From an uncultured Veillonellaceae bacterium (GTDB lineage Bacteria; Bacillota; Negativicutes; Selenomonadales; Selenomonadaceae), in NCBI GenBank assembly GCA_900315575.1, contig OMZR01000004.1, positions 1 to 45,164 of the forward strand: a stretch of 45,164 nucleotides of DNA, read 5' to 3'. The stretch's first letter is position 1; each line of letters opens with the position of its first letter. Under the pieces are notes generated by a model, which saw only the letters and a list, made by a program, of their open reading frames with translations, searched no databases and was not told the DNA's origin. Positions 10,535 to 43,651 of this stretch are shown here, in pieces. The translations under genes were made by a program, and so were the position numbers.

Positions 10535-10763
10535 ATCAGCAAGAGCAAAGAGGCAATGGAGCCCACGCAGTCTACGGTACCAGACTGCGTGGGCTTTTGT
10601 TTCTCCTCCGCTGGTAAACACATTATCTGTCAAAGCAGGGACAACGGCGTCCCGCCGCTGGGCAGCTCCCCCTCACAGGCTGCTCTTTTGACGGGATGCT
10701 TTTCTTTTCTCTGCTTCCCCCTGCAATCGTAGTTTTTTCATAAAGTGAAAGGATTTGGTATTT
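10535..10763 (+). promoter_or_regulatory. structured leader of amt-glnK, likely attenuation region
   Basis: Three structures follow one another. First is a perfect 13-pair hairpin with CTTTTGTTT tail (10561-10573 with 10582-10594). Second is a 5-pair hairpin with hexaloop AACGGC (10638-10653). Third is a 7-pair hairpin followed by TTTT (10660-10666 with 10679-10685). CGGCG (10645-10649) can alternatively pair with CGCCG (10653-10657), so the second structure has a competing fold. No open frame of note is present. The arrangement suggests conditional termination, or a short RNA of about 65 bases made from the promoter at 10500. Which of these applies cannot be settled by eye. Confidence 0.55.
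10561..10600 (+). terminator. terminator-like hairpin within the amt leader
   Basis: GCCCACGCAGTCT (10561-10573) and AGACTGCGTGGGC (10582-10594) form a perfect 13-pair stem with an 8-base loop, followed by TTTTGTTT. It begins about 26 bases after the predicted transcription start. Confidence 0.8.
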
Positions 10764-12086
10764 ATGATCGACACGGGCGATACGGCCTGGGTCCTCATCA
10801 GCGCGGCCCTGGTATTCATCATGACCCCCGGCCTCGGGTTCTTCTATGGCGGCATGGTCCGCAGCAAGAATGTGCTCACGACCATCATGCAGAGCTTCTT
10901 CATCGTGGCGATGATCTCGGTGGAGTGGATGATTCTCGGCTACACGATGACGTTTGGCACAGACATCAATGGCTTCATCGGCAGCCTCGAGAAGTTCGGC
11001 CTCGCGAATGTCGGCCTCAACGTGCTCGAGGGCGGCACGATTCCGGAACTCGCGTTCGTCGCGTTCCAGTGCATGTTCGCCGTCATCACGCCGGCGCTCA
11101 TCACGGGCGCATTTGCGGAGCGCGTGAAGTTCCGCGCGTTCACGCTCTTCATCCTGCTCTGGGCGATTCTCATTTACAACCCGATGGCGCATTGGGTCTG
11201 GGGCGGCGGCTTCCTCGCGGAGCTCGGCGCACTTGACTTCGCCGGCGGCCTCGTCATCCACATTCTCTCGGGTGTCTCGGGCCTCACGCTCTGCATGCTG
11301 ATCGGCAAGCGCAAGGGCTATGGCAAGTCGGCCATGCTGCCGCACAATCTGCCGATGACGGTGCTCGGCGCGACGCTTCTCTGGTTCGGCTGGTTCGGTT
11401 TCAATGCGGGCTCGGCGCTCGGCGCGAACGGCCTCGCAGCAAATGCCTTCATCGCTTCGCAGGGCGCGGCAGCGGCCGCGACGGTCAGCTGGGTGCTCCT
11501 TGAGTGGGTGCGCAGCGGCAAGCCGACGGTGCTCGGCGCAGCTTCCGGCTGCATCGCGGGCCTCGTTGCCATCACGCCGGCGGCCGGCTTTGTCGAGCCG
11601 ATGCCTGCCATCTTGATCGGCTTCATCGGCGGCGGCGTCTGCTACTTCGCCGTGGCAGTGCTCAAAGAGAAAATGGGCTACGATGATTCCCTCGATGCGT
11701 TCGGCGTCCACGGCCTCGGCGGCACGTGGGGCTCCATCGCGACGGGCCTCTTCGCGACGACGGCGGTCAACCCGGACGGCGCAAATGGCCTGTTCTACGG
11801 CGAGACGCACCTCCTGATGGCACAGATCATTTCGACGGTCGTTGCCTATGCGCTCGCGATTGGTGGCACGTTCATCCTCTACAAGATTGTCAACGCCATC
11901 ACGCCGTTCCGCGCGGACGATTCGGAAGAGCTCGCAGGCCTCGACATCGTCGAGCACGGCGAGCATGGCTATACGGGCGACACGTTCTCGGCGAGCCCGA
12001 CGATGCTCGGCACGTTCCTCGGCGAGGAAGACAGCCCTGCGATGTTCCAGGCATCCGTCCTTGATCATCCGAATCCAGGAAGGTGA
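10764..12086 (+). CDS. amtB: ammonium transporter, Amt/MEP/Rh family
   Basis: Membrane channel for ammonium uptake. It is 440 residues with about 11 membrane spans and no cleavable signal. Family marks are TPGLGFFYGGMVRSKN at the N-terminus, the first pore histidine in LDFAGGLVIHILSG, the second in FGVHGLGGTWGSIATGLFA, and the cytoplasmic tail. The start was set to the ATG at 10764, 10 bases after GAAAGGA; an in-frame TTG at 10755 is too close to that site. glnK follows 11 bases after the stop, the classical pairing in which GlnK plugs the transporter when nitrogen is sufficient. Expression is probably set by the long leader upstream. Confidence 0.96.
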   Translation: MIDTGDTAWVLISAALVFIMTPGLGFFYGGMVRSKNVLTTIMQSFFIVAMISVEWMILGYTMTFGTDINGFIGSLEKFGLANVGLNVLEGGTIPELAFVAFQCMFAVITPALITGAFAERVKFRAFTLFILLWAILIYNPMAHWVWGGGFLAELGALDFAGGLVIHILSGVSGLTLCMLIGKRKGYGKSAMLPHNLPMTVLGATLLWFGWFGFNAGSALGANGLAANAFIASQGAAAAATVSWVLLEWVRSGKPTVLGAASGCIAGLVAITPAAGFVEPMPAILIGFIGGGVCYFAVAVLKEKMGYDDSLDAFGVHGLGGTWGSIATGLFATTAVNPDGANGLFYGETHLLMAQIISTVVAYALAIGGTFILYKIVNAITPFRADDSEELAGLDIVEHGEHGYTGDTFSASPTMLGTFLGEEDSPAMFQASVLDHPNPGR

Positions 12087-12097
12087 GGCATAACATC

Positions 12098-12457
12098 ATG
12101 GAACTTACAAAAGTAGAAATCATCACGCGTACGAGCAAGCTCGAGGAGCTTAAGGAAGCTCTCAATAAGATTGGCGTGCTCGGCATGACAGTCAGCCAGG
12201 TCTATGGCTGCGGCCTGCAGAAGGGCCATCGCGAAATCTATCGCGGCCAGGCGTATGAGATCAACCTCGTGCCGAAGATCAAGGTCGAGACGGTCATCTG
12301 CGAAATCCCGGTCGAGCGCGTGCTCGAAGTTGCGGAGAAAGTCCTCAAGACGGGCAAGGTCGGTGACGGCAAGATCTTTGTCTACAAGCTCAGCGATGCC
12401 GTGCGCATCCGCACGGGCGACCGGGGCCCGGAAGCCATCATGGACGAAAAATCATGA
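12098..12457 (+). CDS. glnK: P-II nitrogen regulatory protein GlnK
   Basis: Trimeric sensor of ATP/ADP and 2-oxoglutarate that binds AmtB. It is 119 residues. The T-loop keeps the tyrosine used for uridylylation in other bacteria (Tyr53 in YRGQAYEINLVPKI, aligned with the usual Tyr51). The nucleotide-binding B-loop (TGKVGDGKIFV) and C-terminal VRIRTGDRGPEA are intact. AAGGTGAGG (12080-12088) precedes the ATG. It is the most canonical of the three P-II proteins in this window. Confidence 0.96.
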   Translation: MELTKVEIITRTSKLEELKEALNKIGVLGMTVSQVYGCGLQKGHREIYRGQAYEINLVPKIKVETVICEIPVERVLEVAEKVLKTGKVGDGKIFVYKLSDAVRIRTGDRGPEAIMDEKS

Positions 12458-27234: not shown

Positions 27235-27416
27235 ACGACAACTTCATAAAGAAGGATCAGGTGTCGCAAGACTCAATAGAGAAGCCGGTAAAAATCGTCC
27301 GGCGCGGTCCCGCCACTGTATCAGCGAGTGCCCTGCAAATATGTCACTGGAGATGGCAAAGCATCTCTGGGAAGGCGCAGACGCACGATGACCTGGAGCC
27401 AGGAGAACTGCCTGAT
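27235..27416 (+). ncRNA. cobalamin (B12) riboswitch without a downstream gene
   Basis: The aptamer core is clear: GAAGCCGGTAAAAATC, then CGCGGTCCCGCCACTGT, a GTCACTGG segment, CTGGGAAGGC, and the B12-box-like GATGACCTGGAGCCAGGAG closing with ACTGCC. These appear in the order and spacing of cobalamin riboswitches. It has its own consensus promoter. Downstream on the same strand there is no gene, only a terminator at 27523 and then the 3' end of a convergent peptidase gene. It could be a remnant of a lost B12-regulated gene or control a non-coding RNA. Confidence 0.9.
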
Positions 27417-27522
27417 CATCAATCACCGTTTGACCCGCGAGCGATGGGGATGGGGATTCCAGAATCTTGATAGATCCTCTGGCACAGACCAGAAGACACA
27501 TAGAACTGGATGCTTCATACAG

Positions 27523-33514: not shown

Positions 33515-34069
33515 TTACATGGGATGGTCTTGCAGGGCATCGTATCCTTCTTCGCCGGTCCGGATCTTGACGACGTTGTCCATCGAGGAGATGAAGATTT
33601 TGCCATCGCCGTATTTTCCCGTGTAGAGGACGTTCTTGGCGACATCGACGATGGTTTCGGGCGGGATTTTCGAAATGACGAGGTCGCACTGGATTTTCGG
33701 CAGGAGCTTGGATTCGATGGTCGTGCCCGTGTACATGCCGTTATGGCCTTTCTGGAGGCCGTAGCCGAGTACGCGCGTGACGGTCATGCCCGTGATGCCG
33801 ATGGATTCGAGCGCTGTCATGAGCGGGTCGAAGCGCGATTCGCTCGTGATGATGCGGACGTGGTAGATGCGCGGCCGCTGCGAGGGGAGCGAGGTCTGTG
33901 GGATGGTCGGCGGCACGGCAGAGGCGTTCCCGTCATCGGGCGGCTCGGGCGCGGGAGCGCCATGAAATTCGGGACGGGCGTTTTCCGGCCAGGTCGGGCA
34001 CATCACGGTTGCGCGGCCTTCCAGCGTGTCGAGGAGCTTGTGCAGGAGCTTGATGCAGGTCTTCTTCAT
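33515..34069 (-). CDS. P-II-like protein with 68-residue N-terminal extension
   Basis: 184 residues. About 1-68 is an extension not found in normal P-II proteins: a helical start (MKKTCIKLLHKLLDTLEG) then a Pro/Ala-rich linker. Residues about 69-184 are a P-II domain (YHVRIITSESRFDPLMTAL, GLQKGHNGMYTG, TGKYGDGKIFI, VVKIRTGEEG). The T-loop reads TGTTIESKLLPKI, so the usual modified tyrosine is absent (Ile or Thr there) while the nucleotide-binding B-loop is intact. It lies 33 bases after an APC permease gene on the same strand, the same layout as amtB-glnK. AAAGGA precedes the ATG. Confidence 0.88.
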   Translation of the reverse strand: MKKTCIKLLHKLLDTLEGRATVMCPTWPENARPEFHGAPAPEPPDDGNASAVPPTIPQTSLPSQRPRIYHVRIITSESRFDPLMTALESIGITGMTVTRVLGYGLQKGHNGMYTGTTIESKLLPKIQCDLVISKIPPETIVDVAKNVLYTGKYGDGKIFISSMDNVVKIRTGEEGYDALQDHPM

Positions 34070-34102
34070 CTTAGGTCATCCTTTCTGGAGAGGGGGATTC
34101 CG

Positions 34103-35533
34103 TCATGCTTCAGCACGCGGCGCGGCGTCCGGGGGGGTCGGCGTGGATTGCGGATGGCGGCAGAGGTAGTAGAGCGGATCTTCCATCGCCATGACTTTTG
34201 AGAGCGGCACGCGGTGGAAGATGGAGATGTGGAGCCGCTTCCGCACCCAGACATAGGCGTAGATGGCGAGCAGCAGGGTCGAGACGCCCGTGATGGCGAA
34301 GATTTCAAGACGCTCCGAGGGATCGGGCGAGATGTGCCAGATCATGTAGAGCGTTCCGACAATCGCAAAGAGCTGGAGCACGGGATAGCCGGGGACGCGG
34401 TACGTGCGCGGTACCTGCGGGGCGCTGTGGCGCAGCACCATGACGTTGATGTGCGAGACGATGTAGGAAATCATCCAGAACAGCGAGGAGACGAGAATCA
34501 GGAACTGGATGGCGTCGCCGCTCGAGAGCCCTGTCGCTTCGATGAGGATTGTGAGGATGCCGAGGAGCAGGATGACGACATAGGGCGCACCGTGGCGGTT
34601 CTTCCGCTGGAACAGCGCCGGCAGCAGGCCGATTTTCGCCATGCCGCAGCAGATTTCTGCGACGCAGCCGATGATGGAGTTCTGCGTCGAAACGGCGGCG
34701 AGGATGGCGACGATGATGATCCAGACGCGGCCGATGTCGCCGAGCATGTTCTCCGCGTAGAGGATATGCGGCGCGTCGGAGGCGGCGAGTGTATCCCACG
34801 GCGTGTAGTGCGCGAAGCCGAGAACCATGAGCGACTGGATGATGCACATGATGGCGAGGCTCAGGAACATCGCGCGCGGGATGTCGCGTTTCGGCGCTTT
34901 CATGTCCTTGCCGAGCGGGATGATGAATTCCGAGCCGATGAAGAGCCAGAATGCCGTCGTCGTGAGCGGCAGGATATCATCGAGCTCGGTATCGAGCACG
35001 AGCGGCTGCGCGACGGCATCGCCTGTGCCGATTCCGGCCGCGCCGACGAAGCCGAGCGCGAAGAGCGATGTGACCATGACGGCGGCGATGACGCTCTGGA
35101 CGAGTGTCGAGACTTTGACGCCGCGCAGGTTGATGAAGATGAGGGCAATCGTCAATGTCACGCTGTAAAAAGCGGTCGGAAGCGTGTCGCCGAGGAAGGC
35201 CGTCATGACATTCGCGAACATCGCACCTTCGGCGGGGGCCGCGAAGATGTTGCTGACGAAGTAGCCGCCGATCATCGTGACGATGGTGACGAACGGGCCG
35301 AGGCCGACGAGCGTATACTGCGCGAGGCCGCCTGTGAGGTTCGGCATGAGTGCGCCGAGCTCCGCGATGGAGGCGGCCGCGAGCATGTTGATGGCGCAGA
35401 CGAGGAGGATGGCGGGGATGAATGTGACGCCGACGCTGCTCGCGCCGCTCGCAAGCGGGATGAAGCAGCTCGTCGCGATGATCATGCCGACGCCCGTCGA
35501 GACGGCGCCGAAAAGTCCAATCTTGCTCTGCAT
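34103..35533 (-). CDS. APC-superfamily amino acid/amine permease
   Basis: 476 residues with about 12 membrane helices. It opens IGLFGAVSTGVGMIIATSCF, the first discontinuous helix of the amino acid-polyamine-organocation family. It also carries WLFIGSEFIIPLGKDMKAPKRDIPRAM and VPRTYRVPGYPV (each typical). The substrate cannot be read from sequence. Because it is paired with a P-II-like gene and divergent to the carboxylase operon, import of guanidine, urea or a related nitrogen compound is a reasonable guess. AAAGGAGC on the minus strand lies 8 bases before the ATG at 35533. The open frame further upstream lacks family residues. Confidence 0.85.
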   Translation of the reverse strand: MQSKIGLFGAVSTGVGMIIATSCFIPLASGASSVGVTFIPAILLVCAINMLAAASIAELGALMPNLTGGLAQYTLVGLGPFVTIVTMIGGYFVSNIFAAPAEGAMFANVMTAFLGDTLPTAFYSVTLTIALIFINLRGVKVSTLVQSVIAAVMVTSLFALGFVGAAGIGTGDAVAQPLVLDTELDDILPLTTTAFWLFIGSEFIIPLGKDMKAPKRDIPRAMFLSLAIMCIIQSLMVLGFAHYTPWDTLAASDAPHILYAENMLGDIGRVWIIIVAILAAVSTQNSIIGCVAEICCGMAKIGLLPALFQRKNRHGAPYVVILLLGILTILIEATGLSSGDAIQFLILVSSLFWMISYIVSHINVMVLRHSAPQVPRTYRVPGYPVLQLFAIVGTLYMIWHISPDPSERLEIFAITGVSTLLLAIYAYVWVRKRLHISIFHRVPLSKVMAMEDPLYYLCRHPQSTPTPPDAAPRAEA

Positions 35534-35558
35534 GGAAATCGCTCCTTTCGTTTCCCAC

Positions 35559-35587
35559 ATCATGCCATGGCAGGCGGCTGTGCACAA
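35559..35587 (-). promoter_or_regulatory. promoter of the permease/P-II operon
   Basis: On the minus strand TTGTGC (35582-35587) and CATGAT (35559-35564) are separated by 17 bases. Predicted start near 35552, leaving a short leader. Confidence 0.55.
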
Positions 35588-35629
35588 TGGGACAAAGGAG
35601 GACATTTTTCCACGCTGGAAGGAAGACGG

Positions 35630-35645
35630 ATGGAACGAAAGTGGA
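35630..35645 (+). promoter_or_regulatory. 16-bp repeated site, copy 1 (candidate activator site)
   Basis: ATGGAACGAAAGTGGA occurs here and, identically, at 36669-36684. This copy lies between the divergent promoters of the permease operon and the LuxR-type regulator, about 85-95 bases upstream of both predicted starts. Two exact copies in about 1 kb, both non-coding and promoter-proximal, suggest a shared regulator, most simply the LuxR-type protein encoded between them. Confidence 0.55.
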
Positions 35646-35696
35646 AGACGCAGGCGTCCGGAAGACTGAATTTCCCGCACGGAAGCAGCTCTTCTG

Positions 35697-35725
35697 TAGA
35701 CATCCGGCCGCCTGCGTGCTACAAT
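35697..35725 (+). promoter_or_regulatory. promoter of the LuxR-family regulator gene
   Basis: TAGACA (35697-35702), 17 bases, TACAAT (35720-35725). Predicted start near 35732, about 90 bases before the coding start. Confidence 0.6.
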
Positions 35726-35820
35726 GGGTTACAAATCAAGCGACAACGACGTCGGGAGCCAGCAGCTTCCGGCGTCGTCTTTTTATAGAAGCAGATGGAT
35801 GGAAGAGAAAGGCGGACCGT

Positions 35821-36579
35821 ATGCTGAAGGAAGCAGAATGGATGACAATCAACAATATCCTCTTGGAACTCTATGCGCAGAAGAGCATCGGCGACCTTTC
35901 GACGAAGCTCATGCGCGTGCTGCGGATGCTGATTCCTTATACGAAGGGCTACCTGCTGCTGCTCGACGCCGATGGCACGATCCGCACGGACGAGAGCTGC
36001 TTCATTGGCATGGAGGAGCGCGAGTCGGCCGCCTATGTCGAGCGCTACTATCAGGAAGATTACCTTCAATATCTCTATGAGCTCAGCGAGGGCACGCGCG
36101 TCTATCGCGATACGGACATCATCGAGGAAGAGCGCCGCTGCCGCACGGACTTCTTCCAGAAATTCCTGCTGCCGGCCGGCATTCCTTATGGCTGCGGCAT
36201 CCTCGTGCTGCACGAGGGCAGCGTGCTTGCGGTCTTCAACCTCTTCCGTTCGAAGGAACTCGGCGATTTCACGGACAAGGACATGGAAATCCTGAACATC
36301 CTCAAGCGCCATGTTGAGAACATGATTGTCAGCGTCACGCAGATGGACGAGCGCAGCCAGCTCGTCGAGCGCTGCTTTGAAAAGACGTCGGAGCGCTATG
36401 CCCTGACGCAGCGCGAGGACGAGGTCATGCGCCTCCTCGCGCGCGGCCTCTCGAACAGCGAGATCTGCGATCGCCTGACCGTCAGCATCTCGACAGTCAA
36501 GAAGCACATCTACAATCTCTTCACGAAGACGAATGTCAAGAGCCGCACGCAGCTGATGAATCTCCTGTATCAGCAATGA
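35821..36579 (+). CDS. LuxR-family transcriptional regulator with GAF-like sensor
   Basis: 252 residues. The N-terminal about 170 residues (LYAQKSIGDLSTKLMRVL to the FTDKDMEILNILKRHVENM helix) have the pattern of a GAF-type sensor, judged from layout rather than motif. The C-terminal HTH (about 190-250) is a clear LuxR/FixJ domain: LTQREDEVMRLLARGLSNSE and VSISTVKKHIYNLFTKTNVK. The start at 35821 follows AAAGGCGG; an in-frame ATG at 35842 is an alternative. It sits between the permease/P-II operon and the carboxylase operon and is the obvious candidate regulator of both. No receiver domain is present, so it probably senses a small molecule. Confidence 0.85.
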   Translation: MLKEAEWMTINNILLELYAQKSIGDLSTKLMRVLRMLIPYTKGYLLLLDADGTIRTDESCFIGMEERESAAYVERYYQEDYLQYLYELSEGTRVYRDTDIIEEERRCRTDFFQKFLLPAGIPYGCGILVLHEGSVLAVFNLFRSKELGDFTDKDMEILNILKRHVENMIVSVTQMDERSQLVERCFEKTSERYALTQREDEVMRLLARGLSNSEICDRLTVSISTVKKHIYNLFTKTNVKSRTQLMNLLYQQ

Positions 36580-36823: not shown

Positions 36824-37543
36824 ATGAAGAAGATCTTCACGAAGACATTCCGCCCCGGTGAGAAGTGGTCCGGTGCGATCGGCCGTCACAAGTACCTGCA
36901 TTTCAAGGCGCTCGGCGAGGATGCGAATCTCTCCGTCCTCATGTACAACCTGCTCGACACGTCGGAGCGCTACAATATGCCGGACACGCTGAAAGCCCAG
37001 TACACGTCGCATCTCACGAAGGGCAACGTCCTCATGAGCGACAACGGCCGCGTACTTGCGAGCATCACGGAAGACAGCCTCGGCTGGCATGATACGATCA
37101 CGGGGCACACGACGCGCCGCATGACGGATGAGAAATACGGCATCCATACGTACCAGCAGGCGCGCAATGATTTCTATCGTTCGGGCGAGGAAAATTTCAA
37201 GATGGAGCTCGTGCGCAACAACATGGGCAAAGGAGACCTCGTGCCGTGCGTCAACCTCTTTTCGAAAGTCTATGTCGATCTCGACGGCAGCATGCACTAT
37301 GTGCCGGGCTGGTGCAAGGAAGGCGCGACGGTCACACTGCGCACGGAGATGGACATCATCTTCATCGCCTCGAACACGCCGAACCCGCTGAATCCCTCGA
37401 AGGAATATCCGCAGGTGCCGGTTATCATGGACGTCTATGATGCGCCGACGACGGATCTCATGGATGCATGCGTGAACCATCGTCCGGAGAACTATCGCGC
37501 CTTCGAGAACACCTGGGATTACTACAACCTGCTCGGCCGCTGA
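36824..37543 (+). CDS. DUF1989 urea carboxylase-associated protein 1, likely carboxyguanidine deiminase subunit
   Basis: 239 residues of the DUF1989 family, annotated historically as urea carboxylase-associated protein. In guanidine-degrading bacteria two such proteins form carboxyguanidine deiminase (CgdA/CgdB), which converts carboxyguanidine to allophanate and ammonia. Family features seen are [19 protein letters not shown], the CVNLFSKV strand and [18 protein letters not shown] near the C-terminus. The start at 36824 follows GGAGGA by 7 bases. It is the first gene of the operon and its partner begins 29 bases later. The deiminase role is inferred from the pair plus the carboxylase. Confidence 0.85.
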
Positions 37544-37572
37544 GACGGGACTTGGAAAAGGAGGATTTCATC

Positions 37573-38220
37573 ATGTACGGACTCATCGAGAAGAAAAGCA
37601 CGCTGAAGGAAGCGGACGCCATCTATAACGAAGTGCTCGACGCCGGTCTCGGCTGGCTTCATGAGGTGAAGAAAGGCCAGTCGCTGCGCATCGTCGATCT
37701 CGAAGGCAACCAGGCCGTCGATACGACGTTCTATGATGCGGCCGACACCTCAGACCACTATGGCGCCATCGCGACGATCGTCGCGCAGAAGAACATCTAC
37801 CTGACGACGGGCACGGTGCTGCGCGCAGAGTCGGGCACGCCGCTCCTCGAAATCACGGCAGACATGACGGGACGCCACGATACGCTTGGCGGTGCCTGCT
37901 CGTCGCAGAGCAACACGGTGCGCTACGCTCGTGAAAAGCGCTACATGCACAACTGCCGCGACAGCTTCATGTTGCAGCTCGCCGACAGCGCGACGGGCAT
38001 CCGCAAGCGCGATCTTGCGCCGAACATCAATTTCTTCATGAACGTGCCGGTCACGCCCGAGGGTGGTCTGAAGTTCGATGATGGCGTGTCGGCACCGGGC
38101 AAATATGTCGAAATGAAGGCGTTGCGCGATGTCTACGTGCTCATCAGCAACTGCCCGCAGCTCAACAATCCCTGTAACGCTTACAATCCGACGCCGATCC
38201 GTCTTCTCATCTGGGATTGA
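37573..38220 (+). CDS. DUF1989 urea carboxylase-associated protein 2, likely carboxyguanidine deiminase subunit
   Basis: 215 residues, second DUF1989 protein. Likely metal/catalytic features are [29 protein letters not shown] and a paired cysteine segment [17 protein letters not shown] close to the C-terminus. The latter matches the family pattern better than the first paralogue, which has [10 protein letters not shown] at the same place. This suggests that one subunit is catalytic and the other structural. AAAAGGAGGA precedes the ATG. Expected to act with the upstream protein on the product of the downstream carboxylase. Confidence 0.85.
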
Positions 38221-38271
38221 CGCATCTCGTTTTTCGAGACGGGGTGATGCGGAAAAAAGGAGGAATCCGCC

Positions 38272-41200
38272 ATGTTTACGAAAGTGCTCATCGCCAACCG
38301 CGGTGCCATCGCCGTGCGCATCGAGCGCACGCTGAAGAAAATGGGGGTCGGGAGCGTCGCTGTCTACGCGCAGGCCGACCAGGACAGCCTGCATGTGAAG
38401 AACGCGGATGAAGCTGTCTGCCTCGGGGAAGGGACGGTCAGCGAGACGTATCTCTCCATCGAGAAGATTCTCGCGGCAGCGAAGGAGACGGGCGCGGAAG
38501 CCGTGCATCCGGGATATGGATTCCTGTCGGAGAACACGGACTTCGCAGCGGCCTGCGAGCAGGCCGGTATCGTCTTCATCGGCCCGACCGCCACCGAGAT
38601 CCGCCGCTTCGGCCTCAAGCATGCGGCGCGCGCTCTCGCGGAATCGGCGGGCGTGCCGCTGCTGCCGGGCACGGGGCTTCTCTCGGGGGCGGGCGAGGCC
38701 GTGCGGGCAGCGGACAGCATCGGCTATCCCGTCATGCTGAAGAGCACGGCGGGCGGCGGCGGCATCGGCATCCGCATCTGCCAGAACGAGCAGGAACTTC
38801 GCGCGGCCTATGACAATGTCTGCCATCTCGCGGAAAGCAACTTCGGCGATGGCGGCGTCTTCCTCGAAAAATATATCGCGCGCGTCCGCCATGTCGAGGT
38901 GCAGATTTTCGGCACGTCGGCGGGCGAGGTCACGGCCATCGGCGAGCGCGACTGCTCCGTGCAGCGGCGCAATCAGAAAGTCGTCGAGGAGTCGCCGGCA
39001 CCGAACCTCCCGGAGCATGTGCGCCGCGCGATGTACGAGGCGGCCGAACACCTTGCGGCAGCGGCATCATACCGCAATGCCGGCACGGTCGAATTCCTCT
39101 ATGATGAGCCATCGGAACACTTTTATTTCCTCGAAGTCAATACGCGCCTGCAGGTCGAGCACGGCATCACGGAGGAGGTCATGGGCGTCGACCTCGTCGA
39201 GTGGATGGTGAAGGAGGCAGCCGGCGAGCTCCATGACATCAAAACGCTCGTCCATGCGCCTGAAGGCCATGCCATCGAAGTCCGCGTCTATGCCGAGGAC
39301 GCGCACAATGATTTCCGTCCGGGTACGGGCCGCATCGATGACTGCCAGTTCTCTCCTGATTTGCGCGTCGAGACGTGGATCTGCCCGCACATCGAGGTCA
39401 CGGCGCTCTATGATCCGATGCTCGCGAAACTCATCGTGCATGGTAAAGATCGCGCCGATGCGCTCGCGAAGATGCAGCGGGCGCTTGCGGAGACGCGGAT
39501 CTATGGCGTCACGACGAACCTTTCCTATCTTTCTGCGATTCTCTCGCGCGAGGACTATCAGGCAGGACGTCTCTATACGAAGATGCTTGACGGATTCCTG
39601 CCAGAGGAACCATATCTCGAAGTGCTCGACGGCGGCCTGCAGTCGACGGTGCAGGATGCGGACGGCAGAATCGGCTATTGGACGGTCGGCGTGCCGCCCT
39701 GCGGTGCGATGGACAGCTACAGCTTCCGCATCGGCAACCGCCTGCTCGGAAATGAAGACGACGCGGCAGGCATCGAGCTCACGATGCGCGGCGGCGGTTT
39801 CCGCTTCCGCACGCGCACGTCCTTCGTGCTGACGGGCGCAGATATGGAGGCCGAGTTCGACGGCGAGCCCGTGCGGCGCTACCGCGTCGTCAATGCGCTC
39901 GCAGGACAGGTGCTGCGCCTCGGAACGGCGAAATGCGGCATGCGCGCGTATCTCCTCGTCGCGGGCGGCATCGACGCGCCGGAGGTCCTGGGCAGCCGTT
40001 CGACGTTCGTCGATGGAAGATTTGGCGGTCATAACGGGCGCGCCCTGCGCACGGGCGACACGCTGCGCCTCGCGTCGCCATGCTACACGGACAGCTGCGC
40101 TTCGTTCCCTGAGGAATTTGCGCCATCCATCACGCATGAATGGACGCTCGGCGTGCTGCCGGGGCCGCAGCCGACGGCGGAATACCTGAAGCCTGCGTAC
40201 CTTCAGACGCTCACGAGTGCCGAATACACGGTCAATTTCGACAGCGCCCGCACGGGCGTGCGCCTCAATGGCCCCGTGCCCGAGTGGACGCGTGAGGACG
40301 GCGGCGAGGCGGGCCTCCATCCGTCGAACATCCACGACAATGCCTATGCTATCGGCACGCTCGACCTCACGGGCGACCAATCCATCCTGCTCGGCCCGGA
40401 CGGCCCGAGCCTCGGAGGCTTCGTCTGCCCCGTGACGCTCGCGAAAGCCGAACTCTGGAAGCTCGGCCAGCTTCATCCGGGTGATGTCGTTCATTTCCAG
40501 CTGCTGACGCTTGCAGAGGCAGCGGAGCTCCGCGCCGCGATGGAAAAGAATCTTTCGTTTGCGTATACGAAAGTCGTGCTTCCAGAGGAACCATCCGGCG
40601 TCTCGGCGGAGGATGCCATCCTCGCGCAGGGCACGGCAGACGGCATGGCATACTGCCTGCGCCTCGATGGCGAGGAAAATGTTCTCATGGAATTCGGCCC
40701 GATGGAGCTCGGCATCGAATACCGCTTCCGCGCGCATATCCTCATGCAGGAGCTCGAAAAGCGGAAGCTCCCGATCATCGATATGACGCCGGGCATCCGC
40801 TCGCTGCAAGTGCATTTCGACCTCGCGCAGACCGATGCAAAGGCCATGGCGGGCGCCATCGTCGATGCCAATGCGCACCTCGCGCATCTCGACGACATCA
40901 CGGTGCCGTCGCGCATCGTCTATCTGCCGCTCTCATGGGACGATCCGCAGACGCAGCTCGCGGCATGGCGCTATCAGGAGACGACGCGCCCCGATGCGCC
41001 GTGGTGCCCGAGCAACCCCGAGTTCATCCGCCGTATCAACGGTCTCGATTCCCTCGATGATGTCAAGCGCATCGTCTTCGATGCCGACTATCTCGTGCTC
41101 GGACTTGGTGACGTCTATCTCGGCGCGCCCGTCGCGGCGCCACTCGACCCGCGCCACCGCCTCGTCACGACGAAGTATAATCCCGCGCGTCCGTGGACGC

Positions 41201-41865
41201 CGGAAAACGCCGTCGGCATCGGCGGCGCCTACCTCTGTGTCTACGGCATGGAGGGGCCTGGCGGCTACCAGTTCGTCGGCCGCACGATTCAGATGTGGAA
41301 CTCGCTGCAGACGACCAGATACTTCCCGAAAGGCAAGCCGTGGCTGCTGAACTTCTTCGACCAGCTGCGTTTCTATCCCGTCGCACCGGATGAGCTCCTC
41401 AAGGCGCGCAATGATTTCTTGCGCGGGAACTTCGACATCCGCATTGAGGAGACAAGTTTCAACCTCGGCGAGTACAAGGCATATCTCGCTTCGATTGCGG
41501 AGGAAAGCGCAGCGTTCAAGGCGCATCAGGAAGCCGCCTTTGAAGCGGAGAAGCAGCGCTGGCACGAACAGGGCCTCGATACATTCGTCAGCGAGACGGC
41601 GGCCGCGCCGCAGCAGGAGGCCGTCATCCCCGCAGATTCGGAAGGCGTGCTCGCGACCGTGCCGGGCAGCGTCTGGAAGCTCCTCGTCGAGGAGGGGCAG
41701 CATGTCGAGAAAGGCGAGACGATCGCCGTGCTCGAAAGCATGAAGATGGAGATTCCCGTCACGGCCGAGGCCTCCGGCACGGTCACGGCCATCTGCACCG
41801 AGAGCGGTGCCCAGGTCGATGCCGGGCAGGTTCTCGCAGGCATCCGGAAGGAGAAGACGGCATGA
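38272..41865 (+). CDS. biotin-dependent guanidine/urea carboxylase
   Basis: 1197 residues. The biotin carboxylase domain (about 1-445) has KSTAGGGGIGIRI, ERDCSVQRRNQKVVEE and EVNTRLQVEHGITEEV. The carboxyltransferase region has a KipA-like part (about 445-750, STVQDADGRIGYWTVGVPPC) and a KipI-like part (about 800-1050, GGAYLCVYGMEGPGGYQFVG). The C-terminal biotin carrier domain carries biotinyl Lys1158 in LESMKMEIPV. The KipI-like part reads RTIQMWN with Asn1010; urea carboxylases, as I recall, have Asp at this place and guanidine carboxylases Asn. With two DUF1989 proteins upstream, guanidine is the more likely substrate. GGAGGAATCCGCC precedes the ATG. Lengthwise it is complete. Confidence 0.9.
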   Translation: MFTKVLIANRGAIAVRIERTLKKMGVGSVAVYAQADQDSLHVKNADEAVCLGEGTVSETYLSIEKILAAAKETGAEAVHPGYGFLSENTDFAAACEQAGIVFIGPTATEIRRFGLKHAARALAESAGVPLLPGTGLLSGAGEAVRAADSIGYPVMLKSTAGGGGIGIRICQNEQELRAAYDNVCHLAESNFGDGGVFLEKYIARVRHVEVQIFGTSAGEVTAIGERDCSVQRRNQKVVEESPAPNLPEHVRRAMYEAAEHLAAAASYRNAGTVEFLYDEPSEHFYFLEVNTRLQVEHGITEEVMGVDLVEWMVKEAAGELHDIKTLVHAPEGHAIEVRVYAEDAHNDFRPGTGRIDDCQFSPDLRVETWICPHIEVTALYDPMLAKLIVHGKDRADALAKMQRALAETRIYGVTTNLSYLSAILSREDYQAGRLYTKMLDGFLPEEPYLEVLDGGLQSTVQDADGRIGYWTVGVPPCGAMDSYSFRIGNRLLGNEDDAAGIELTMRGGGFRFRTRTSFVLTGADMEAEFDGEPVRRYRVVNALAGQVLRLGTAKCGMRAYLLVAGGIDAPEVLGSRSTFVDGRFGGHNGRALRTGDTLRLASPCYTDSCASFPEEFAPSITHEWTLGVLPGPQPTAEYLKPAYLQTLTSAEYTVNFDSARTGVRLNGPVPEWTREDGGEAGLHPSNIHDNAYAIGTLDLTGDQSILLGPDGPSLGGFVCPVTLAKAELWKLGQLHPGDVVHFQLLTLAEAAELRAAMEKNLSFAYTKVVLPEEPSGVSAEDAILAQGTADGMAYCLRLDGEENVLMEFGPMELGIEYRFRAHILMQELEKRKLPIIDMTPGIRSLQVHFDLAQTDAKAMAGAIVDANAHLAHLDDITVPSRIVYLPLSWDDPQTQLAAWRYQETTRPDAPWCPSNPEFIRRINGLDSLDDVKRIVFDADYLVLGLGDVYLGAPVAAPLDPRHRLVTTKYNPARPWTPENAVGIGGAYLCVYGMEGPGGYQFVGRTIQMWNSLQTTRYFPKGKPWLLNFFDQLRFYPVAPDELLKARNDFLRGNFDIRIEETSFNLGEYKAYLASIAEESAAFKAHQEAAFEAEKQRWHEQGLDTFVSETAAAPQQEAVIPADSEGVLATVPGSVWKLLVEEGQHVEKGETIAVLESMKMEIPVTAEASGTVTAICTESGAQVDAGQVLAGIRKEKTA

Positions 41866-43262
41866 GCAAAAAAGAAATCCCGGAAATCCTGACGATTCCC
41901 GGACTTAAAAACGGCTATGAAACGGGCAGCTTTTCGCCGCGTGATGTTGTGAAATCTGTGATTGAGCGCAGTGCGGCGCTCGCGGAAAAGCACATCTTCA
42001 TCACGCCGCCCTCGATGGAGCTCATCGGCCCGCATCTCGCGGAGATGCCGCCGATGGACTTCAAAAAGTATCCGCTCTGGGGCATCCCGTTCGCCATCAA
42101 GGACAACATCGATCTCGCGGGTGCAGAGACGACGGCGGCCTGCCCGGCTTATGCGTACCGGCCGGAGGAAAGCGCGACGGTCGTGAAGAAGCTCCTCGCG
42201 GCGGGCGCCATCCCGATTGGCAAGACGAACCTCGACCAGTTCGCGACAGGCCTCGTCGGCACGCGCAGCCCTTACGGAGAAGTCGAGAACGCTTATGTGC
42301 CCGAGCGCATCAGCGGCGGTTCGAGCTCTGGTTCGGCGGTCAGCGTCGCCTGCGGCCTCGCAGCATTTGCACTCGGTACGGATACGGCAGGTTCCGGCCG
42401 CGTGCCGGCGATGCTCAACGCGCTCGTCGGCTGGAAGCCTGCGCTCGGCGCCTGGTCGACGAAGGGTGTCGTGCCCGCGTGCGCAAGCCTCGATTGCGTG
42501 ACGGTCTTTGCTCATACGCTCGGTGAAGCCGAGGCCGTTGACGGCATTGCGCGCGGCTATGATGCCGCGTGCCGCTGGTCGCGTCCGCTCGTGCGAAAGG
42601 CAGCGGCGCTGCCGAAGAAAATCCTCCTGCCTGCGGACGGCCTCCAGTTCTTCGGCCAGACGGCGCAGGTGATGGAGCGGAAATGGCAGCGTGCGGCAGA
42701 GCGGCTCGAAACACTCGGCGTCCCGGTCGAATTCATTTCCATCGATGTCTTCGAGCATGCGGCAAAGCTCCTTTATGAAGGTGCTTTCGTCGCTGAGCGC
42801 TGGGCTGACCTCGGCGCGTTCGTCGAGGCGCATCCGGGCGAAATCTTCCCTGTGACAGAAACCATCCTGCGCTCGGGCGGGCAAACGTCGTACACGGCGG
42901 CGAAGCTTTTTGACGATATGCACGCGCTCGCGCTTTATCGTCATCGCGCAGCGGAGCTTCTGGAGGGTGCCGTGCTCGCGCTGCCGACAGCGGGTGGCAC
43001 GTTCACGCGCGCAGAGGTCGATGACGACCCTGTCCGGACGAACAGTCTCATGGGACTTTACACGAACCATTGCAATCTCCTGGATCTTGCGGCCATCGCC
43101 GTGCCGGAAGACGCAGGCGACCACGTGGACCCGTTCGGCATCACGCTCTTCGCGCTTCACGAGAATGAGCATCTTGCCGATGGCGTGGCACGTGCGTTCC
43201 TCTCGGCAGGGGGGCAGGCAGAGCGTGCGATGGAATCTGCTGCAAAGGAGGCATCGGCATGA
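41862..43262 (+). CDS. atzF: allophanate hydrolase, amidase domain only
   Basis: 466-residue amidase-signature enzyme. The Ser-cisSer-Lys triad is visible as Lys80 (PFAIKDNIDLAG), Ser154 (ISGGSSSGSA) and Ser178 (LGTDTAGSGRVPA). The family hydrolyses allophanate, the product of the two preceding steps. Full-length AtzF is about 600 residues with a C-terminal domain that helps complete decarboxylation; that domain is absent here. The ATG overlaps the carboxylase stop (ATGA), and the P-II-like gene overlaps its own stop the same way, so the three are translationally coupled. Context makes allophanate the likely substrate over other amides. Confidence 0.87.
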   Translation: MSKKEIPEILTIPGLKNGYETGSFSPRDVVKSVIERSAALAEKHIFITPPSMELIGPHLAEMPPMDFKKYPLWGIPFAIKDNIDLAGAETTAACPAYAYRPEESATVVKKLLAAGAIPIGKTNLDQFATGLVGTRSPYGEVENAYVPERISGGSSSGSAVSVACGLAAFALGTDTAGSGRVPAMLNALVGWKPALGAWSTKGVVPACASLDCVTVFAHTLGEAEAVDGIARGYDAACRWSRPLVRKAAALPKKILLPADGLQFFGQTAQVMERKWQRAAERLETLGVPVEFISIDVFEHAAKLLYEGAFVAERWADLGAFVEAHPGEIFPVTETILRSGGQTSYTAAKLFDDMHALALYRHRAAELLEGAVLALPTAGGTFTRAEVDDDPVRTNSLMGLYTNHCNLLDLAAIAVPEDAGDHVDPFGITLFALHENEHLADGVARAFLSAGGQAERAMESAAKEASA

Positions 43263-43651
43263 ACGAAGCAAAGAAGAACGCAGGCGGCGCAGGATTTGCC
43301 CGCATCGAGATCATGATGGGCATGAAGAAGCTCACGCCGCTCCTCAAGAAGCTCAGCACGGCCGGCATCACGGGCGTCACGGTCTTTCAGGCGCTCGGCT
43401 GCGGCATCCAGCACGGTTCGTATGAATACGCACCGGAAGAATCCACGGAAATCCAGCTCCTGCCGAAGACCTGCCTCTTCATCATCTGCGAACGGGAGGC
43501 TGTCTCTGACCTCGTCGAGCTCCTCAAGCTCGAACTCTATACAGGCCACATCGGCGACGGCAAGATCTTCGTCTCCGGCATCGACAACATCATCCGCATC
43601 CGTACGGGCGAAGAAGGCGAGGAAGCATTGCGCAGGTCGGATATCGGGTGA
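43259..43651 (+). CDS. P-II-like protein coupled to the carboxylase operon
   Basis: 130 residues with a P-II fold. The N-terminal strand FARIEIMMGMKKLTPLLKKL is followed by GITGVTVFQALGCGIQHG. An altered T-loop (YEYAPEESTEIQLLPKT) has no tyrosine at the modification position. The B-loop TGHIGDGKIFVSG and C-terminal IIRIRTGEEGEEAL are intact, so nucleotide binding is likely. It starts inside the allophanate hydrolase stop (ATGA) and ends the operon. It may tune one of the operon's enzymes, perhaps the biotin-dependent carboxylase, or a transporter. The role is not known from sequence. Confidence 0.88.
   Translation: MNEAKKNAGGAGFARIEIMMGMKKLTPLLKKLSTAGITGVTVFQALGCGIQHGSYEYAPEESTEIQLLPKTCLFIICEREAVSDLVELLKLELYTGHIGDGKIFVSGIDNIIRIRTGEEGEEALRRSDIG

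Follow-up and report, generated by a model that had tools for sequence, protein, structure and literature searches.

A P-II-like protein of a guanidine carboxylase operon belongs to a clade linked with APC-superfamily permeases

Few signal proteins are as widespread as those of the P-II family, whose well-known targets among transporters are the Amt and ABC systems. An arginine of the T-loop plugs the pore of AmtB, and the binding of P-II to the biotin carrier of acetyl-CoA carboxylase is established. ADP-bound GlnK blocks Amt through the T-loop until 2-oxoglutarate and ATP release the block; the arginine that blocks the AmtB pore is printed once as Arg41 and once as Arg47 in the source (PMC8395244). 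Cyanobacterial P-II controls uptake by Amt1, Nrt and Urt (PMC6603209), and an APC permease of comammox organisms has been predicted to import guanidine (PMC11410670). Here we describe P0008, a P-II-like protein encoded at the end of a guanidine carboxylase operon in a stretch of 45,164 nucleotides (contig OMZR01000004.1, hereafter the window) from an uncultured Veillonellaceae bacterium placed in the Selenomonadaceae. Its clade accompanies permeases of the APC superfamily, and we put the probability that P0008 acts as a dedicated GlnK-like brake on an APC-type guanidine importer at roughly two in three, with binding and direction of control proposed by analogy.

A P-II clade beside APC permeases

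Relatives of P0008 were fetched by P-II similarity alone, without asking for a permease. The phylogenetic analysis placed P0008 in a clade of 37 rows (support 100/100) that holds only APC-linked P-IIs and P-IIs of guanidine operons, the latter nested inside it (99/92). For each of the 29 members outside guanidine operons, the P-II gene is immediately followed on its strand by that of an APC permease, with a gap of 3-134 nucleotides in 26 and about 400-450 nucleotides in three. Most of these loci (25 out of 29) include subunits similar to opine/sarcosine (amine) oxidases and/or an ornithine-cyclodeaminase-like gene ('tyramine oxidase subunit B'), three lie beside a class-III aminotransferase, and a urea/guanidine carboxylase (UC) gene was found in none of the 29. 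Because these APC-linked members sit in opine- or amine-type modules without UC, the P-II follows the permease across pathways. Four guanidine operons of Clostridia (loci L012/L161, L016/L160, L157 and L166) have the order UAAP1-UAAP2-UC-AH-PII-APC permease, where AH is allophanate hydrolase. A recurrent set of sarcosine/opine-oxidase-like subunits, an ornithine-cyclodeaminase-like protein, P-II and APC permease was also observed in L006-L028 and similar loci of Lachnospiraceae, Treponema and others.

The T-loop tip separates this clade from the P-IIs of AmtB. All 48 AmtB-adjacent P-IIs have Arg47 with its YRG motif, versus none of the 37 in the P0008 clade and none of three P-IIs of a second type, represented in the window by P0001. 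The mean excess of acidic residues in the T-loop is 3.5-3.6 in the P0008 clade versus 0.8, and an acidic tip stands in the place of Arg47.

An AlphaFold2 model built from an alignment of 24 relatives gives P0008 a P-II fold with a predicted local distance difference test score of 81 and low confidence in the T-loop; it has 200 matches in the PDB at E<=0.001, GlnK structures among them. In E. coli numbering, which follows what we take to be the GlnK and GlnB sequences and serves for numbering only, P0008 keeps the ATP/2-oxoglutarate site (Q39, K58, GDGK at 87-90, R101 and R103), has Thr at residue 51, and thus no Tyr51, and has Pro at the position of Arg47. The ligand-site residues and the GDGK and RIRTG loops are kept across the whole clade. 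P0008 is predicted to read ATP, ADP and 2-oxoglutarate as a homotrimer. No match to GlnD was found in the bacterium's own genome. Tyr51 uridylylation by GlnD is not a universal feature of AmtB-adjacent P-IIs either. The P0008 start is preceded by a good ribosome site (AAAGGAGG) and shares an ATGA with AH. A preliminary description of this DNA had already noted a T-loop without the modification tyrosine, intact nucleotide-binding loops and translation coupled to the last enzyme, and all three hold for the window. The possibility that P0008 is the ordinary GlnK of AmtB was rejected, since an amtB-glnK pair lies elsewhere (10755-12457), Arg47 has disappeared and P0008 falls in a separate clade; moreover, the P0008 gene adjoins AH and not amtB.

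In the guanidine loci of Bacillota, P-II kind and transporter kind match without any crossing: the APC-type P-II occurs with an APC permease in nine of nine scorable loci, and a NifI-like pair with an ABC transporter in five of five. Agreement in 14 out of 14 has a chance of 1 in 2002 if the loci are independent, which they are not. The tree of the carboxylase does not separate APC-type from ABC-type loci. In the five ABC-type loci (L123, L158, L159, L165 and L167), a NifI1/NifI2-like tandem takes the place of the P-II beside an SsuA/TauA-like ABC binding protein, a permease and an ATPase. No P-II was found in two further Bacillota guanidine loci with an ABC transporter (L156 and L124), nor in three Pseudomonadota plasmid guanidine loci with ABC transporters. 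NifI-like pairs were also considered as general partners of ABC transporters. This was rejected, as NifI1-like genes in a sample of 196 Clostridia genomes occur only in nif-type loci or adjacent to AmtB, and none accompanies an ABC transporter outside guanidine loci. Because of this, a direct enzyme target is possible for the NifI-like architecture. Two of the loci contain two successive UAAP1-UAAP2 pairs (L165:1532-4382 and L167:15506-18295), about 70% and 50% identical to those of the window, which suggests a second substrate or a division of labour.

The guanidine operon and its divergent permease

UAAP1, UAAP2, a guanidine-type carboxylase, AH and P-II form a real operon (Table 1). As the preliminary description had reported, all five genes are present on the forward strand, here with profile matches, and ATGA overlaps occur at UC/AH and AH/P-II. 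The UAAP1-UAAP2 pair adjoins the carboxylase and both members lie above the TIGR03425 and TIGR03424 cut-offs, as required of CgdAB. The AH has 466 amino acids and lacks the AH_C domain (PF21986) of a full-length allophanate hydrolase; AH_C is present in the Clostridia homologues of L157 and L166. The domain is also missing from the AH of other Selenomonadaceae loci, and most Clostridia homologues are full length.

A guanidine carboxylase is expected to carry Asp at K. lactis position 1584 and Asp rather than Asn at position 1330 (Palatinszky et al. 2024, PMC11410670). In an alignment to K. lactis structures, Asp698 of the window carboxylase falls on Asn1330 and Asp947 on Asp1584, the correspondence at 1584 being counted by hand, and both residues are present in all 16 carboxylases compared. 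The carboxylase sequence thus has a guanidine-type active site and a preference for guanidine is predicted, in agreement with the guanidine pathway proposed earlier; identity as a urea carboxylase was rejected on the same signature. No guanidine riboswitch was detected in the window at the Rfam gathering threshold, and the scanned loci in the range L006 to L024 gave none either. A cobalamin riboswitch (RF00174, 93.9 bits) at 27242-27429 is unrelated to the guanidine operon.

Full-length UC is rare in the Negativicutes, with 5 of 300 genomes of the class above the cut-off and a sixth (G268) in which the gene is split over two contigs. The P-II gene lies directly behind AH in all six. Relatives in which the P-II is unlinked to the operon, which would speak against a P-II of the operon's own, were thus not encountered among the genomes with full-length UC, and the earlier claim of a dedicated P-II stands. 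The ATGA coupling of AH and P-II is confined to the window, G101 and G268; in G212, G218 and G113 the P-II starts about 24-300 nucleotides behind AH, and the coupling is not conserved beyond the nearest relatives in the genus. The LuxR-permease pair described below is divergent in five of the six genomes, the G268 contig ending before it. In G212, about 13 kb of other genes lie between the LuxR-permease-P-II part (L127:11412-16001) and the enzyme operon (L118:1-8380). In G101 and G268, amtB-glnK follows the guanidine operon at a distance of about 3 kb, and close relatives thus differ by a rearrangement of the region.

The preliminary description overlooked two neighbours on the upstream side of the operon, a GAF-LuxR-type regulator and, on the reverse strand, an operon (33515-35569) that encodes an APC permease together with a second P-II, P0001. 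Homologues of the regulator are found in most related loci (L012, L016, L115-L117, L119, L127, L157-L159, L161 and L165-L167). The permease of the window shares 57-74% identity with those of other guanidine loci (more within the genus) and mostly 40-47% with those of opine-type clusters. Given its linkage to the operon and the precedent from comammox organisms, the permease presumably imports guanidine. No match to a uca-type ABC binding protein was found in the genome. The P0001 gene lies 33 nucleotides behind that of the permease, and its product has an N-terminal extension of about 68 residues, a helix followed by a Pro-rich linker. The helix looks amphipathic in the window and in one relative (hydrophobic moment 0.45-0.46, values reached by 2.6% and 5.9% of shuffles), and P0001 may be membrane-tethered. 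P0001 has a relative in an AmtB::P-II fusion encoded on contig 65, which together with P0008, P0001 and the amtB-glnK pair brings the P-IIs of the genome to four.

Table 1. Position and supporting evidence of the genes of the window and of the NifI-like tandems of other guanidine loci
Feature	Coordinates	Strand	Evidence and remarks
UAAP1 / CgdA-type DUF1989 protein, carboxyguanidine deiminase subunit	36824..37543	+	TIGR03425 268 bits, PF09347
UAAP2 / CgdB-type DUF1989 protein, carboxyguanidine deiminase subunit	37573..38220	+	TIGR03424 315 bits, PF09347
Guanidine carboxylase, single chain of biotin carboxylase, carboxyltransferase and biotin carrier	38272..41865	+	TIGR02712 1678 bits (cut-off 1304); Asp698 and Asp947
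Allophanate hydrolase (AH), amidase domain only	41862..43262	+	NF006043 516 bits; PF01425 only
P0008, P-II of the APC-permease-linked clade	43259..43651	+	PF00543 66 bits (cut-off 25); T-loop SYEYAPEESTEIQ; tree 100/100; P-II fold
GAF-LuxR-type regulator	35587..36579	+	PF00196 61 bits; actual start probably further downstream than 35587
APC-superfamily permease, candidate guanidine importer and candidate P-II target	34103..35569	-	PF13520 100 bits (cut-off 27), TIGR00909 126 bits; coordinates of the open frame, start probably inside, near 35533
P0001, second P-II, AmtB/GlnK-type by descent, with N-terminal extension	33515..34069	-	PF00543 75 bits; nested in AmtB-linked P-IIs (tree); Arg47 replaced by Thr (alignment)
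NifI1/NifI2-like tandems	L158:5670-6376; L159:13709-14456; L165:4404-5137; L167:14714-15441; L123:1832-2656

A proposed brake on guanidine import and its alternatives

Guanidine would enter the cell through the divergently encoded APC permease, be carboxylated and deiminated to allophanate, and then be hydrolysed to ammonia and CO2, so that the operon would make guanidine available as a nitrogen source. P0008, and probably P0001, would brake the permease. The P-II trimers, unmodified in a genome lacking GlnD, would sense ATP/ADP and 2-oxoglutarate. With ample nitrogen or little energy (the ADP-bound state with little 2-oxoglutarate), the acidic T-loop tip would dock on the permease from the cytoplasmic side and stop uptake, and Mg-ATP and 2-oxoglutarate would release the P-II again. 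The cell would thereby spend no ATP on a toxic, nitrogen-rich substrate while ammonia is in excess. The sequences establish which genes are present, a guanidine-type active site, the linkage of P-II with permease throughout the clade, the loss of Arg47, intact effector residues and the absence of GlnD. What the permease transports, that P-II binds it and in which direction it acts are inferred from AmtB-GlnK, the cyanobacterial P-II and the comammox permease.

Several points weigh against such a brake. In the Selenomonadaceae the P-II gene closes an enzyme operon; the permease is encoded on the opposite strand at a distance of about 7.7 kb and, in the window, has a second P-II of its own. Conserved linkage indicates a common job and is not proof of a binding target. 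The correlation of distances among P-IIs with those among permeases (Mantel r 0.72, 0 of 2000 permutations), in itself a point for the brake, is uncorrected for species relatedness, and the 14 scorable guanidine loci are phylogenetically non-independent. The docking of the T-loop and its inhibitory sign are proposed by analogy with AmtB only; APC transporters are not trimeric channels as AmtB is, and the plug mechanism is not directly transferable to them.

The preliminary description had instead proposed that the P-II controls the biotin-dependent carboxylase, in which case it would bind the biotin carrier or carboxyltransferase of the guanidine carboxylase and tune its activity, as P-II does through the biotin carrier of acetyl-CoA carboxylase. 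Such control would account for the constant place of the P-II right after AH in the six Negativicutes operons and for the coupling of its translation in the window to the enzymes and not to the permease. The main point in its favour is that three kinds of P-II (APC-type, the AmtB-type second copy and NifI-like pairs) occur with the same carboxylase, which is thus the constant factor. However, 29 loci that lack UC pair the P0008 clade with an APC permease, the kind of P-II shifts with that of the transporter while the carboxylase is unchanged, and guanidine operons with an ABC transporter can be without P-II. Control of the carboxylase is thus not supported and we regard it as unlikely; the evidence points more to the transporter than to the carboxylase as the target of P0008.

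The roles may also have been split in the Selenomonadaceae, a tethered P0001 having taken over the permease and P0008 serving the enzymes, the LuxR regulator or mixed trimers. We consider this, too, rather improbable. It would fit the position of P0001 just behind the permease, its AmtB-type descent with Arg47 likewise lost, its seemingly amphipathic N-terminus in two species, and the departure of the permease from the operon of P0008, though it is still nearby. Yet in G218, where the arrangement is split as well, the locus yielded no second P-II, and P0008 keeps the acidic T-loop and effector residues of its clade. A P-II that was carried along with a permease cassette and now serves as a general GlnB without a dedicated target is hard to reconcile with ligand-site residues and loops kept clade-wide and with the fact that none of the ten guanidine loci of the APC type has lost its P-II. 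The somewhat faster divergence of P0008 compared with most of the operon (window and G101 are 92% identical in P0008, versus 96-99% in UC and UAAP1/2 and 90% in AH) and the presence of four P-IIs in the genome would suit such a passenger, which we nevertheless consider very improbable.

A brake by P0008 on the permease would add a transporter superfamily to the targets of P-II and would explain how anaerobic gut bacteria restrain toxic, nitrogen-rich substrates; the loss of Arg47 and the acidic tip would be a natural experiment on target choice by the T-loop. The findings suggest a transporter-linked P-II whose transporter superfamily is new for P-II, and a pairing of P-II sensor and permease that is undescribed. 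We are evenly divided on a broader view, in which an undescribed P-II subfamily, having moved away from AmtB in evolution as an acidic tip replaced its Arg47 plug, is dedicated to APC permeases for opine/amine catabolism and guanidine uptake, and several kinds of P-II, among them nitrogenase-type NifI-like pairs with an ABC transporter, have been recruited by guanidine-using Bacillota for nitrogen-status control of guanidine import or use. In a literature search outside which most subscription journals lay, no paper was found that links P-II to APC permeases, which is no proof of novelty, and none that joins guanidine carboxylase with P-II or a nitrogen regulatory protein.

Comparison with known systems

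The pairing of P-II with the biotin carrier of acetyl-CoA carboxylase finds no parallel here, as there is no linkage evidence that the P0008 clade targets a biotin enzyme. The guanidine carboxylase operons of Pseudomonadota, with carboxylase, CgdA/CgdB and AH, share with the window their enzymes, gene order and diagnostic Asp residues. Unlike them, the window has an APC permease instead of an ABC transporter, a LuxR-GAF regulator, no riboswitch at the Rfam threshold and an AH without AH_C, and one or two P-II genes are present here versus none in the three Pseudomonadota plasmid loci.

The comammox loci resemble the window in combining guanidine degradation with an APC permease, which has been proposed as an ATP-independent guanidine importer (PMC11410670). 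Their enzyme is a guanidinase and not a carboxylase, control is by riboswitch, and the term 'PII' is absent from that paper. GlnK-AmtB is similar in that the P-II gene adjoins that of a transporter for nitrogen compounds, with the same fold and effector residues, and P0001 is of AmtB-type descent. The system described here differs in its APC-superfamily partner, the missing Arg47/YRG plug, the acidic T-loop tip and the absence of Tyr51 and GlnD. Cyanobacterial P-II, which gates the uptake of several nitrogen compounds by binding Amt1, NrtABCD and UrtABCDE (PMC6603209), likewise acts on transporters. There, however, one general P-II serves ABC and Amt targets, whereas here a dedicated P-II goes with an APC permease.

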